NCBI GenBank assembly: GCA_946615905.1
Contig: CAMOIE010000002.1
Coordinates: forward strand, 62,001 to 126,000
DNA: 64,000 nt
From: an uncultured Treponema sp.
GTDB lineage: Bacteria; Spirochaetota; Spirochaetia; Treponematales; Treponemataceae
Direction of reading: 5' to 3'
Shown piece after piece: positions 59,348 to 64,000 of this stretch. The first letter of the stretch is position 1. Every line of letters starts with the position of its first letter. The translations under genes and the position numbers were made by a program. The notes beneath the pieces were generated by a model that saw nothing but the letters and a program-made list of their open reading frames with translations, had not been told where the DNA came from and did not search any database.

Positions 59348-60331
59348 ATGACAGAACGAGAGGACAAATTCAAACTTCACCGGATGATTTTAATCGACAA
59401 GTGGATTCGGAGCGGGGCTTACCCTTCGATTCAGCAGATGATGGACGAGTACGGCGTTTCGAGGCGGACGGTTTTGCGAGACATGGAGTTTTTGCGCGAC
59501 CGATACAACGCGCCACTTGAGTGCGACCGCGTGCGGGGCGGCTACTATTATAGCGACCCGACTTTTATGATTCAGAACGTGCTCCTGACCGAGGGCGACC
59601 TTTTTACGGTCTCCACGCTCATGCCGCTCATGGAGCAGTACAAGAACACGCCGCTTGAGTCTTCGTTCAAGAACATCATGGCCAAAATCGCGGAGATGCT
59701 GCCTGACAAGGTGACGGTGGACACGAGTTTTTTGAACGACGACGTGACTTTTATCCCAGACCCGCTCCCAAAAATCGAGGAGGAGGTCTTCAACGGGATT
59801 TTCAAGGCGGTGAAGCTTCGGGAGACGATTTCTTTTGGCTACAAGAGCGTCGGTTCGGACGAGTTCAAGCAGAAGGCTTTTGACTCCTACCGCGTTCTCT
59901 GCCAAAAGGGGAACTGGTATGTCTTAGGCTATGAGCACGGGGCGGCCGACACAAGGACTTTCGCGCTTTCGAGAATGAGCGGAATCAATTTTACGGGTGA
60001 GCATTTTGAAGTCCCAAAAGATTTTGACATCGCGCAGCACGTGGATTTGTCCTTTGGAATCTGGAACAACCGTGAGGAGCCGACTGAGTATGAGCTTTTG
60101 TTCACGAAAAACATGGCGAACTACATTTTGGAGCGGACTTGGCACAAGGAACAGACCGTGGAGCGCACCGAAAGCGGCGACATCCTGCTCAAATTCAAGA
60201 CGAACCAGAGACAGCAGGTCTTTAGCTGGGTGCTCGGATTCGGAGACGCGGTGACGGTGCTGAAGCCGGAAGCCTTGCGCGAGGAGCTGCGGCGAGAAGG
60301 GGAGAAACTTTCAAGAAAATACGAAAAATAA
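59348..60331 (+). CDS. WYL-domain transcriptional regulator
   Basis: 327 residues after CGAGG. Helix-turn-helix MILIDKWIRSGAYPSIQQMM, DEYGVSRRTVLRDMEFLRDR; middle HTH-linker; WYL domain about 160-250 (RETISFGYKSVGSDEFKQKA; VLCQKGNWYVLGYEHGAADT) and the C-terminal WCX module (VFSWVLGFGDAVTVLKPEAL). Higher GC than the WYL gene at 55082, and only distantly similar. The palindrome TGTCATTCTATGACA at 60340 lies 9 nt after its stop and before the RNase III-like gene, so it may control that gene. Confidence 0.93.
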   Translation: MTEREDKFKLHRMILIDKWIRSGAYPSIQQMMDEYGVSRRTVLRDMEFLRDRYNAPLECDRVRGGYYYSDPTFMIQNVLLTEGDLFTVSTLMPLMEQYKNTPLESSFKNIMAKIAEMLPDKVTVDTSFLNDDVTFIPDPLPKIEEEVFNGIFKAVKLRETISFGYKSVGSDEFKQKAFDSYRVLCQKGNWYVLGYEHGAADTRTFALSRMSGINFTGEHFEVPKDFDIAQHVDLSFGIWNNREEPTEYELLFTKNMANYILERTWHKEQTVERTESGDILLKFKTNQRQQVFSWVLGFGDAVTVLKPEALREELRREGEKLSRKYEK

Positions 60332-60339
60332 TCCCCCGG

Positions 60340-60354
60340 TGTCATTCTATGACA
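60340..60354. promoter_or_regulatory. Palindrome TGTCAT-tct-ATGACA before the RNase III-like gene
   Basis: Arms TGTCAT and ATGACA are the same sequences as in the 51426 and 55055 operators but arranged the other way round, with a 3-nt spacer. TACAAT at 60367 may be the -10 box. Confidence 0.55.
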
Positions 60355-60395
60355 TAGTGACCATGGTACAATCTTCCCACCAGCAGGGGGAAGAG

Positions 60396-61643
60396 ATGAA
60401 AGCGCGGGAACTTGAATTTGTCCAAAATCAGATAGGATACACTTTTCAAAATGAAAAACTTTTGAAACAGGCATTCATAAAAGAGTCACCAGAAAAGACA
60501 AATGCAAATTTCAACAACGACACTTTGGAATTCTACGGTGACAAGATTCTTGGATTTATCCTTGCAAAAAAATTCTTTTCTGAAAATTCAAAAATTTCTA
60601 TAAAAGGCAATTTTATGACTGCTATGAATGCTGGAATGCTGACTGGAGAATACTGCAAATATGCAAGCAACAAATATCTTGCCGAGCGGATTGAAAAACT
60701 CAGGCTTCGTCATTTTCTGATTGGACGCAGTGGAAAAAAGTTAGAAAGGGTTTCTGTAAAGTCGGAAGGCGATTTGTTCGAGGCGATACTCGGTGCTGTT
60801 GCTGTTGACTGCAATTGGAACATTCAGATTCTGGACGGTCTAGTTGAGCGAATGCTCATTGATGATTTAAGCAAAAATGCCAGCCGTGAAGAAATTTTGC
60901 AATACTGTGCGGAATATAATCTTGGACAGGTCGATTTTTACGAGGAGGAGCTTGGGTTTAACCATAGATTCACGGTTAGATTTTCAAGTTTGTACAAGGA
61001 GTTTTCTGCTAGCGACAAAAAGTCGGACGTGGCGGAAGTTGCTGCCTGCAGAAAGGCATTGAACTATCTGCAAATGGTTTTATCCGTGGGAAAACTTTTC
61101 TATGACAATGCGAAAACTGCTTTGGAAGATTTGTCAAAACTGCATTTTTTTCCGCAGCCAGAATTTCATACCTTCCTTAAAACTGATGGCGAGGTTGAAT
61201 GTTGGGGGGCAATTTGCTCCATAAAAGGATTCGATCAAGTTTGCGACGGGGAAGCACCTGATTTTGAAACTGCGGAAAACATCGTAGCAGGGAGAATGAT
61301 GAATTTTGTCTTTGATCTGGCACCAAAAACTCCAAAGGCAAGAGAACTTCCAAAAATTATTCAGACATATGAAACAGAAGAGAATGTTGAAGACAATTTT
61401 GATGACGAAAAATGCCGGTATGAGATGGATATTGTCTCGCAAGTCTATAACAAATTCAACTGCAAGGAAATCTCTCAGCTTGAATTTTCATTTGATGATT
61501 CAGAAGAGTCCGTAACTTGCATTGCACTTGCTGACGGTCAGGAATATCGCTCGACTAGCGACAGTCGGAAAAAATCCAAAAAGGCCGTGTGCGAGCAAAT
61601 CATGGCAGATTTGAACAAGGCGTATGAAGAATATTTGGTGTGA
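60396..61643 (+). CDS. RNase III-type protein with extra dsRBD-like domains
   Basis: ATG at 60396 follows AGGGGG; GTG at 60339 is possible. 415 residues. RNase III domain about 1-150 with FNNDTLEFYGDKILGFILAK (Glu and Asp of the signature) and KSEGDLFEAILGAVAVD (second Asp and Glu), so the catalytic residues appear intact. A dsRBD-like region at about 160-230 ends DVAEVAACRKALNYL. Two more regions of similar build follow (FHTFLKTDGEVECWGAICSI...; EMDIVSQVYNKFNCKEISQL ... DSRKKSKKAVCEQIMADLNK). Ordinary bacterial RNase III is about 225-250 residues, so this is a long paralogue, likely not the housekeeping rnc. It lies just before RhuM and McrB-like genes. Confidence 0.8.
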   Translation: MKARELEFVQNQIGYTFQNEKLLKQAFIKESPEKTNANFNNDTLEFYGDKILGFILAKKFFSENSKISIKGNFMTAMNAGMLTGEYCKYASNKYLAERIEKLRLRHFLIGRSGKKLERVSVKSEGDLFEAILGAVAVDCNWNIQILDGLVERMLIDDLSKNASREEILQYCAEYNLGQVDFYEEELGFNHRFTVRFSSLYKEFSASDKKSDVAEVAACRKALNYLQMVLSVGKLFYDNAKTALEDLSKLHFFPQPEFHTFLKTDGEVECWGAICSIKGFDQVCDGEAPDFETAENIVAGRMMNFVFDLAPKTPKARELPKIIQTYETEENVEDNFDDEKCRYEMDIVSQVYNKFNCKEISQLEFSFDDSEESVTCIALADGQEYRSTSDSRKKSKKAVCEQIMADLNKAYEEYLV

Positions 61644-61711: not shown

Positions 61712-62722
61712 ATGGAAAACAAGGGCGAAATTGTATTTTTTCAAAGCAAAGACGGAATGGCAAAGCTTTCTGTCAAACTGCAAGATGAAACTGTCTGGCT
61801 TTCTCTTGACCAGATGGCAGAACTATTCCAGCGCGACAAGTCTACTATTTCAAGACATATAAAAAATGTGTTTGAGGAAGGGGAACTTAACGATAGCTCA
61901 ACTGTTGCAAATTTTGCAACAGTTCAAAATGAGGGCGGACGTAATGTTGAGCGTAATATCGATTACTACAACCTCGATGTGATAATTTCCGTCGGCTACC
62001 GTGTAAAATCTCTGCGAGGAACCCAATTCCGAATCTGGGCAAATTCTGTCCTAAAAGAATACATCAAAAAAGGATTTGCCCTAGACGATGAGCGGCTAAA
62101 AGAAAACGGTGGCGGCTCATATTGGAAAGAACTTCTTGACCGAATCCGCGATATCCGCTCGTCAGAAAAAGTCTTGTATCGCCAAGTTCTCGACTTGTAT
62201 GCTACTAGTGTTGACTACGACCCCAAAAGCAATGAGTCAATTCAGTTCTTTAAAATTGTACAGAATAAACTTCATTATGCTGCACACGGACATACGGCGG
62301 CAGAGGTAATTTACGAGCGGGCGGATTCAACAAAGCCTTTTATGGGACTGACAAATTTTTCTGGCGAACTACCAGCACTAAAAGATATCAAAATCGCAAA
62401 AAACTATCTTACAGAGTCTGAGTTGAAAATCCTGAACAATCTCGTTTCCGGCTATTTTGACATTGCTGAAATCAACGCAATCGAACACAAGCCGATGTAT
62501 ATGGAAGATTACGTAAAGCAACTTGATTCCGTTCTTTCTTCTGGTAACAGAAAATTGCTGGAAGGAAGCGGAAAAATCAGCCATGAAAAGGCTATGGAAA
62601 AAGCAGAGAGTGAATATAGGAAGTATCAAAAGGAAACTCTTTCACCGGTGGAAAAGGCGTATTTGGAGTCGATAAAGTGCTTGGAAAAAGAGGCGAAGAA
62701 AAATGCGAGAAAGGGAAAATAG
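61712..62722 (+). CDS. RhuM-family protein
   Basis: 336 residues: GEIVFFQSKDGMAKLSVKLQ, DETVWLSLDQMAELFQRDKS, TISRHIKNVFEEGELNDSST (a helix-turn-helix-like start), NIDYYNLDVIISVGYRVKSL and RGTQFRIWANSVLKEYIKKG, then a C-terminal part of the RhuM group (LKENGGGSYWKELLDRIRDI; TLNNLVSGY-like ILNNLVSGYFDIAEINAIEH). RhuM genes are frequent next to restriction-modification and mobile regions; biochemical role unknown. Extended -10 TGATATAAT 20 nt before the ATG. Follows the RNase III-like gene by 68 nt. Confidence 0.88.
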   Translation: MENKGEIVFFQSKDGMAKLSVKLQDETVWLSLDQMAELFQRDKSTISRHIKNVFEEGELNDSSTVANFATVQNEGGRNVERNIDYYNLDVIISVGYRVKSLRGTQFRIWANSVLKEYIKKGFALDDERLKENGGGSYWKELLDRIRDIRSSEKVLYRQVLDLYATSVDYDPKSNESIQFFKIVQNKLHYAAHGHTAAEVIYERADSTKPFMGLTNFSGELPALKDIKIAKNYLTESELKILNNLVSGYFDIAEINAIEHKPMYMEDYVKQLDSVLSSGNRKLLEGSGKISHEKAMEKAESEYRKYQKETLSPVEKAYLESIKCLEKEAKKNARKGK

Positions 62723-62785
62723 GGTGATGGGATACAAGTTTGCGGCAAATTGTGTGGTATAATGAATAACAAAGGAGAACTCAAA

Positions 62786-64000
62786 ATGTCAGAAGAAACT
62801 ACTTGGTGGCCATCGTTAGATGAATGGAATCCAGAAATTTCAGAAAATGATTGGCTTGAACTTTTAAAAGACTCTTCGGTTTTTACAGATAAATCACTGA
62901 GTATGCTCAAAAAGTTCTTAGATTGTGGTGGAAAAGCGACTTGTGCCGATTTAGCAAAAAAATACGGTGGTACGGCAAACTCTTATATTGGAATAGAACA
63001 AGGATTGGCTAGCCGAATCCTTAAAAAGGAAAATATAACTCCAATCAGTGATGGAAAGCGAGAATGGAAGTTTCCAATTCTATTTCTTGGTCGTTATGTG
63101 GATAAAGAAAAAGATGAAAATGATGGCTCATATATTTGGAAATTACGGCCTGAGTTGGAAGAAGCCCTGAAAAAATTTAATATCTTTGAGTGGGATATGA
63201 AATATCACTTTCGAAAACTTATTGAAGATTACAAAATTCTGATAAAGCAATCAAATTATACAGATTTTATCGATGACGAAATGTATAAGTGGAAGTTTAT
63301 CACGGAAAATCAGAAATCAAAACCTCTGGATATTGTAAACTATTTGATAAAGAACAATTTAAATATTTTTGACAGAGTGCGCGTTTCTCAAGGGTGGAAA
63401 GTACTTTTAAAAGACAAGCCAAACGACTTTGAACAGATTATTCAAAAACTATCTAATGAAAATATTCCGACTCACCAAAGGCTTCAAAATTTCAAAGGCG
63501 ATATGTCAAAATTATTTGATGGCTACAATTTCTCTAGTCACGCGAATGATGAAAGAACAGCCGCATGTTTTTTGGCATGTTTTAATCCTCAAAAATATAC
63601 GTTATATAAAGATGAAAATCTATACGCACCCCTATGTAAGTATCTTGGGTTAGAAAAAGCTAAAGCGGACTATAAATTAGAGCATTTTCATGAGCTTGTA
63701 AATGTTCTTGCCGGTATAATTAAAGAAGATTCTGAACTTCAAGAAATTTTCAAATCAAAAACAGAAAAAGCACATTATATTCAAAGCGATCTTTTGATAG
63801 CCCAAACTGTCGTATGGTGTGTTTTTGAAGAACGGGCTCAGAAAATATTGCATCAAGAATTTACAAACTGGATCCTTCCCTGCAACCCTACAAAGTTTGA
63901 TATTGACGGAGCATATAAAGAATTTTCTGTGCTGAATTGGAAACAGGGCAAAAATAAATTTTCGGTTGGCGACACTGTGTTCATTTATGTTTCCGGGCAA
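62786..64000 (+). CDS. McrB-like protein with N-terminal domain and EVE domain start (3' end outside window)
   Basis: Open from ATG at 62786 (AAAGGAG upstream) to the window end without a stop, so the ORF track misses it. 405 visible residues. Residues 1-190 are an unclassified helical domain (TWWPSLDEWNPEISENDWLE; TCADLAKKYGGTANSYIGIE); about 190-355 resemble the MrcB-like region (NFSSHANDERTAACFLACFN; QKYTLYKDENLYAPLCKYLG); and the last 45 begin an EVE-type fold (NWILPCNPTKFDIDGAYKEF; FSVGDTVFIYVSGQ). This order precedes a GTPase domain in modified-cytosine restriction proteins, which cut foreign DNA. The AAA GTPase and partner nuclease are outside the window. Confidence 0.8.
   Translation, partial: MSEETTWWPSLDEWNPEISENDWLELLKDSSVFTDKSLSMLKKFLDCGGKATCADLAKKYGGTANSYIGIEQGLASRILKKENITPISDGKREWKFPILFLGRYVDKEKDENDGSYIWKLRPELEEALKKFNIFEWDMKYHFRKLIEDYKILIKQSNYTDFIDDEMYKWKFITENQKSKPLDIVNYLIKNNLNIFDRVRVSQGWKVLLKDKPNDFEQIIQKLSNENIPTHQRLQNFKGDMSKLFDGYNFSSHANDERTAACFLACFNPQKYTLYKDENLYAPLCKYLGLEKAKADYKLEHFHELVNVLAGIIKEDSELQEIFKSKTEKAHYIQSDLLIAQTVVWCVFEERAQKILHQEFTNWILPCNPTKFDIDGAYKEFSVLNWKQGKNKFSVGDTVFIYVSGQ

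Follow-up and report, generated by a model that had tools for sequence, protein, structure and literature searches.

The window, by which we mean the whole 64,000-nucleotide stretch of Treponema DNA analysed here, ends in a putative defence island that runs on past its edge and comprises, in order, a gene for a WYL-domain regulator, the palindrome GGTGTCATTCTATGACA (position 60338), an RNase III gene, a RhuM gene, an McrB gene (EVE and AAA domains), an McrC gene, a second palindrome and a gene for a 324-aa protein (Table 1). The original prediction, made from the sequence, had placed the RNase III gene ahead of RhuM and McrB-like genes, and this order was confirmed, with McrC following as well. 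The WYL protein probably regulates the operator at 60338, and the RhuM gene, separated from the RNase III gene by a gap of 69 bp, is probably in the same operon. An alternative in-frame GTG start for the RNase III lies at 60339, upstream of the ATG used here.

Table 1. Features at the RNase III locus (window coordinates).
Feature	Position	Strand	Evidence and remarks
WYL-domain transcription regulator (HTH-WYL-WCX)	59348..60331	+	Pfam WYL 6.7e-14, WCX 6.3e-15
Palindromic operator-like site GGTGTCATTCTATGACA	60338..60356	+	Overlaps probable promoter of the RNase III gene
Possible hairpin over Shine-Dalgarno (TCTTCCC...GGGAAGA)	60372..60394	+	Sequence and folding; weak, may be chance
Accessory RNase III with three dsRBD-fold modules (third probable)	60396..61643	+	415 aa, intact ORF, ATG 60396
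RNase III catalytic domain, residues 1-155	60396..60860	+	Pfam, AlphaFold2 model, active-site alignment
dsRBD-fold module 1, residues 160-232	60873..61091	+	AlphaFold2 model, family dsRBD profiles
dsRBD-fold module 2, residues 236-305	61101..61310	+	AlphaFold2 model, family dsRBD profiles
dsRBD-fold module 3 (probable), residues 337-414	61404..61637	+	AlphaFold2 model, family dsRBD profiles; Pfam dsrm sub-threshold
RhuM family protein	61712..62722	+	Pfam Virulence_RhuM 3.4e-110; PADLOC candidate PDC-S05 5.7e-167
McrB-like AAA+ restriction protein with EVE domain	62780..64000	+	Runs past window end; McrC follows

In a Pfam search of the window RNase III only the RNase III domain itself (PF00636, E=2.9e-10) scored above cut-off, and against the NCBIfam model of the housekeeping enzyme (TIGR02191) the protein reached 60.8 bits, far under the curated cut-off of 166.25. 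The AlphaFold2 model, computed from a 71-sequence family alignment (mean pLDDT 82, pTM 0.48), contains, C-terminal to the RNase III domain, three alpha-beta-beta-beta-alpha modules spanning residues 164-232, 236-305 and 337-414, with a disordered linker (residues 310-335) separating modules 2 and 3. Foldseek matched this model to the RNase III of A. aeolicus and E. coli, to DCL3 and Dicer, and to dsRBD1-2 of TRBP, with E values down to 1.9e-12. Both the count of up to three dsRBD-like regions and the reading by eye of the residues past 230 as dsRBDs are thereby borne out, the fold being firmly predicted for modules 1 and 2 and probable for module 3. In the profile search suggested along with them, 69 of 71 relatives match Pfam dsrm and 22 also match the Dicer dimerisation domain (Dicer_dimer); module 3 of the window protein is sub-threshold at 16.6 bits (cut-off 23 bits). 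This module resembles dsRBD1 of the family, against whose profile it scored 13.2 bits and beat 400 of 400 shuffles (best shuffle 7.1), and its second helix is Lys-rich (RKKSKKA). Modelled alone it took up the same topology at low confidence, and Foldseek with this separate model returned no significant match. Module 2 corresponds to the family dsRBD2 profile and lacks the KKxAK dsRNA-contact motif of the relatives.

A multi-dsRBD plan had been called rare in bacteria. It is not a one-off, since two dsRBDs are the rule in the family; the third, extra to the family, is special to the window copy. The class I enzymes of E. coli and A. aeolicus share the four metal-binding acids of the RNase III domain and the C-terminal dsRBD fold, whereas they have a single dsRBD in about 230-270 aa and the family has two to three in 320-435 aa. 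Eukaryotic Dicer/DCL3, the best Foldseek match, likewise has an RNase III domain followed by dsRBD-fold regions, but the window protein has one RNase III domain only and is without helicase, PAZ or platform.

The gene is not the only rnc in its genome (2.96 Mb, 47 contigs), as the original prediction had left to be checked: a separate housekeeping rnc of 264 aa lies on contig C31. Among 24 relatives sampled, most have one ordinary rnc apiece and a few a long second copy. In a maximum-likelihood tree the long proteins form a clade apart from housekeeping rnc (SH-aLRT 100, branch 1.35), and the second copy together with the separate clade rules out that the window gene is an ordinary rnc. By sequence, the window protein is a member of this accessory clade (RNase III domain plus two dsRBDs), which differs from housekeeping rnc also in its patchy presence and, in the window copy, in the score below the NCBIfam cut-off and the changed second-shell acids. 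The window gene falls within a Treponema clade of 16 rows (SH-aLRT 96) on a long branch (1.23), because of which its exact place in the tree is unsure.

Residues of the active site were matched to those of E. coli by motif and alignment (EGDMS/EGELT for E65), the match to E100 being the least sure. The catalytic motifs had been described as intact, and this holds for the four metal-binding acids (E45, D49, D126 and E129), kept in the window protein as in all 71 sequences, but not for the second shell, where the equivalents of E. coli E38, E65 and E100 are changed to D42, A79 and K114. At these positions the relatives have E in 70/71, E in 70/71 and D in 69/71 sequences respectively, and the E65 equivalent is also absent from the three nearest members of the clade, L037, L043 and L040, two of which have V there and one T. 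In E. coli RNase III the E65A change is enough to abolish activity in vivo and to leave it weak in vitro (PMC8708148), whilst the engineered E38A/E65A/Q165A enzyme (EcEEQ, a ‘bacterial Dicer’) yields siRNA-size products (PMC9291653). The window protein recalls EcEEQ in the lost E65 side chain and altered E38, and differs in being natural, in having D rather than A at E38 and in its extra dsRBDs. The window enzyme is likely, though not certain, to be catalytically active; its activity may be weak or gone given its high divergence, the loss of three second-shell acids and the loss of the module 2 dsRNA-contact motif.

A single-protein search of genome contigs gave no relatives, whereas the family alignment did. 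Within the host's family, 274 genomes yielded about sixty copies (270-435 aa), and only part of these genomes carry one. The family alignment added many members from Lachnospiraceae, Ruminococcus, other Clostridia and Mollicutes, and showed the gene also on 14 IMG/VR viral contigs. In 9 of these 14 a large serine recombinase lies directly upstream of the family gene, so the RNase III travels as cargo of integrating elements. Members occur in the host family (probably Treponema), in Clostridia of the gut and in temperate phages or integrated elements. Its phage members are filed in PHROGs as the unknown family phrog_28637, plasmid and phage collections gave only weak RNase III-domain matches, mostly to ordinary rnc, and no defence model of PADLOC 2.0 matches the RNase III. 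A literature search found no paper on such a multi-dsRBD RNase III family, an absence which is no proof, as subscription papers lay outside the search. Some relatives that lack the leader RNA described below occupy fixed chromosomal places in several species, with glycosidase and phosphorylase neighbours. In one leaderless subclade (L042:8550-9785, L044, L045, L051, L057) the genes directly ahead of the RNase III gene, with a gap of 5-41 bp, encode an ORF6N (KilA-N-like) protein and a 154-aa antitoxin-like protein, possibly a toxin-antitoxin-like arrangement.

Allowing at most one mismatch, the palindrome occurs four times in the host genome (G000) and six and five times in two other clade-bearing genomes (G177 and G233 respectively); it was not found in a third, G215, and a reversed control pattern gave 0 matches in the same genomes. 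It precedes the RNase III gene in G000, G177 and G233. In G177 further sites lie before a gene of the same 324-aa family, before a small HNH-containing cluster, and in the interval that separates a WYL homologue from a type I-C cas operon (Cas3, Csd1); in G233 further sites lie before a member of the 324-aa family and two genes upstream of an McrB-like gene. At locus L040 a WYL homologue stands ahead of a type I-C cas operon. BrxR-type WYL regulators control defence islands and bind inverted repeats (PMC9122601), and this, together with the shared palindrome, makes it most likely that the window RNase III belongs to a WYL-controlled defence regulon, with the WYL protein as the presumed binder. 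Such islands have in common with ours a WYL gene adjoining defence genes and an inverted repeat at promoters; the window palindrome is a different one, and the putative regulon spans RNase III, RhuM-McrBC and, in a relative, type I-C cas. The defence-gene setting pointed out originally is strengthened by this operator common to the RNase III and other defence genes. The WYL-type palindrome GGTGWCAYTCTATGACACC (L040:3323, 5953, 8664 and 11640; G000:C13:11770; G000:C27:1263; L263:1510) precedes several operons in three genomes, among them type I-C cas, RNase III, the 324-aa family and a ‘FILRWNP’ family.

Most other members of the family have instead a structured leader RNA. The sequence ATGCAAGT lies upstream of their genes, about 142 nt before the start codon (quartiles -149 and -137), and caps P1, an imperfect, pre-miRNA-like hairpin of 92 nt with AU-GNRA-GU as its closing element; P1 is followed by P2 and then by a hairpin, P3, over the Shine-Dalgarno sequence (examples at L102:2905-3085, L117:4210-4403, L177:9792-9976 and L070:8601-8778). 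In P1, both partners vary in 14 of 17 pairs and 91.8% of cells are paired, compared with 69.5% when shuffled and 40-46% when slid; all six outer pairs of P2 covary, and a Shine-Dalgarno-occluding hairpin is present in 88% of loci as against 46% of shuffles. Ends of P2 that look attC-like (GCCTAAC...GTTAGGC) in a few loci were set aside, most loci not fitting. Rfam 15 had no match in ten leader loci, weak miRNA matches far below cut-off reflecting the hairpin shape, and on this result a known riboswitch or RNA family was rejected.

In Spirochaetota, Bacillota and viral contigs alike, the leader goes with the long RNase III family. A model of it, R1, matches 31 Treponema loci and, at E <= 0.003, 61 of 94 Clostridial and viral loci, a figure that includes 36 sequences on which the model was trained and some duplicate loci. 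Run against 274 whole genomes R1 gave 32 matches, of which 31 stand immediately in front of a family gene and one falls at a contig end; in G232 the gene likewise starts at a contig end. Against 300 genomes of a Clostridial family it gave seven, five of them in genomes not previously found, and all five of these, found by the leader RNA alone, have a family gene directly downstream. Altogether 36 of the 37 whole-genome matches checked lie directly upstream of a family gene. Having no match in Rfam 15 and being linked, in the genomes searched, to one gene family, this RNA is of value by itself. Searches with R1 and Rfam found no such leader in the window, and R1 had no match in its genome; the window copy is a diverged, leaderless family member with an extra, probable dsRBD. 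The leader-bearing relatives recall the autoregulation of E. coli rnc, in which the enzyme cleaves the 5' UTR of its own mRNA and other substrates titrate it away (PMC5371410). Like the E. coli rncO leader, theirs lies 5' of an RNase III gene and is structured into long hairpins, but it is unrelated in sequence and has an invariant AU-GNRA-GU cap and the Shine-Dalgarno-occluding hairpin.

Downstream of the RNase III stop codon, overlapping it or <=11 bp away, a CoiA-like gene is found in 19 Treponema loci and an HNH gene in six. Rarer partners are NYN/PIN proteins (some with a LOTUS domain), a zinc-finger REase-like fold, DUF2130 and a Thg1-like protein, and many Clostridial copies stand alone. 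The choice of partner looks modular, on numbers that are small outside Treponema. RhuM, which adjoins the RNase III only in the window, was not supported as a general partner of the family. The partner genes at L084:10026-11048, L063:6971-7966, L090:9905-10642, L133:11058-13046, L139:11076-11960, L147:4604-6226 and L111:10996-11664 vary in the type of nuclease or RNA enzyme encoded (CoiA-like, HNH, NYN-LOTUS, zinc-finger REase, DUF2130 and Thg1-like). In a Clostridial genome and in viral contigs (L104:11104-12507, L177:11044-12453) the RNase III gene is coupled to one for an uncharacterised protein of 467-469 aa.

On balance we favour, by no wide measure, the reading that the window gene encodes an accessory RNase III for foreign or excess dsRNA, an inducible defence nuclease. 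A dimer of RNase III domains would cut the duplex, and the tandem dsRBD modules would supply affinity, allowing the enzyme to work at low copy number. The RNase III would be the first gene of a WYL-controlled operon RNase III-RhuM-McrB-McrC, its palindromic promoter held shut by the WYL protein until infection or DNA damage; release of this repression would lead to RNase III being made together with the DNA-targeting McrBC, such that the RNA and DNA of an invader might be attacked together. Most other members would use RNA-level control instead: the pre-miRNA-like hairpin of the three-hairpin leader is probably the enzyme's own substrate, the hairpin over the ribosome-binding site would form part of the control, and the enzyme, by analogy with E. 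coli rnc, would keep its own mRNA repressed for as long as no dsRNA draws it off by titration. More tentatively, the family might be a dsRNA-responsive immune module in which the mRNA hairpin serves as a built-in reporter substrate, foreign dsRNA titrating the enzyme and switching on both the RNase III and an interchangeable downstream nuclease (CoiA-like, HNH, NYN, REase-fold or DUF2130), the window copy having swapped this RNA switch for a WYL transcriptional switch common to McrBC and CRISPR. In eukaryotes the classic alarm of antiviral immunity is double-stranded RNA; in bacteria, to our knowledge, no dedicated defence that cleaves dsRNA is established. Such a defence becomes testable with a mobile multi-dsRBD RNase III clade that occurs in bacteria and phages and is tied either to a covarying hairpin leader or to a WYL operator shared across defence genes, and the second RNase III of a gut spirochaete and its relatives' hairpin leader may represent an undescribed bacterial way of handling foreign dsRNA. 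RNase III, dsRBDs, WYL islands and McrBC are already known; as far as the literature and databases searched show, the accessory multi-dsRBD clade, the leader RNA, the partner switching and the membership of a putative WYL regulon with McrBC and CRISPR are new.

That a gene lies among defence genes does not prove a role in defence, and the missing leader RNA of the window copy, the lack of a PADLOC model and the many Clostridial relatives that stand alone also count against the favoured reading. Three other explanations were weighed. The long branch, the three lost second-shell acids and the lost module 2 motif would suit a decaying copy, its catalysis gone and the gene either surviving as a dsRNA-binding protein or on its way out. 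We regard this as unlikely, since the ORF is intact, the four metal ligands and other invariant residues are kept, a dsRBD has been gained, and both the operator and the position in the operon have been retained. The same active site might instead belong to a Dicer-like processor, in which loss of the E38/E65 side chains would bring about inside-out cleavage of long dsRNA into duplexes of about 22-23 nt for a small-RNA or signalling purpose. The A79 and D42 replacements, the products of the engineered E. coli enzyme, the extra dsRBDs and the pre-miRNA-like leader of the relatives all point this way; yet D42, unlike the alanine of E38A, is still negatively charged, E65A by itself has poor activity, and no Argonaute or guide-using partner was seen next door, which together make it improbable.

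It is also conceivable, though very improbable, that the gene is a second RNase III of ordinary RNA metabolism, a regulator or back-up acting on host mRNA and rRNA or on antisense-controlled toxins, with its defence neighbours there by chance. The fixed chromosomal places of some leaderless relatives would agree with such a role, as would the silencing of prophage toxins by B. subtilis RNase III, according to a remark in PMC5371410; the patchy presence in the genus, the phage and recombinase contexts and the operator common to cas and mcr genes argue against it.

Two further proteins at the host locus deserve mention. The 324-aa protein (L033:8954-9928, on G000:C2 beyond the window) had no Pfam, PADLOC or PHROG match. 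Its homologues at L040 and L266 likewise follow this operator, and it is a candidate new defence gene. A 1001-aa protein (L033:11389-14394) contains a long tandem run of the repeat ESVEEVESLEEVPEA.
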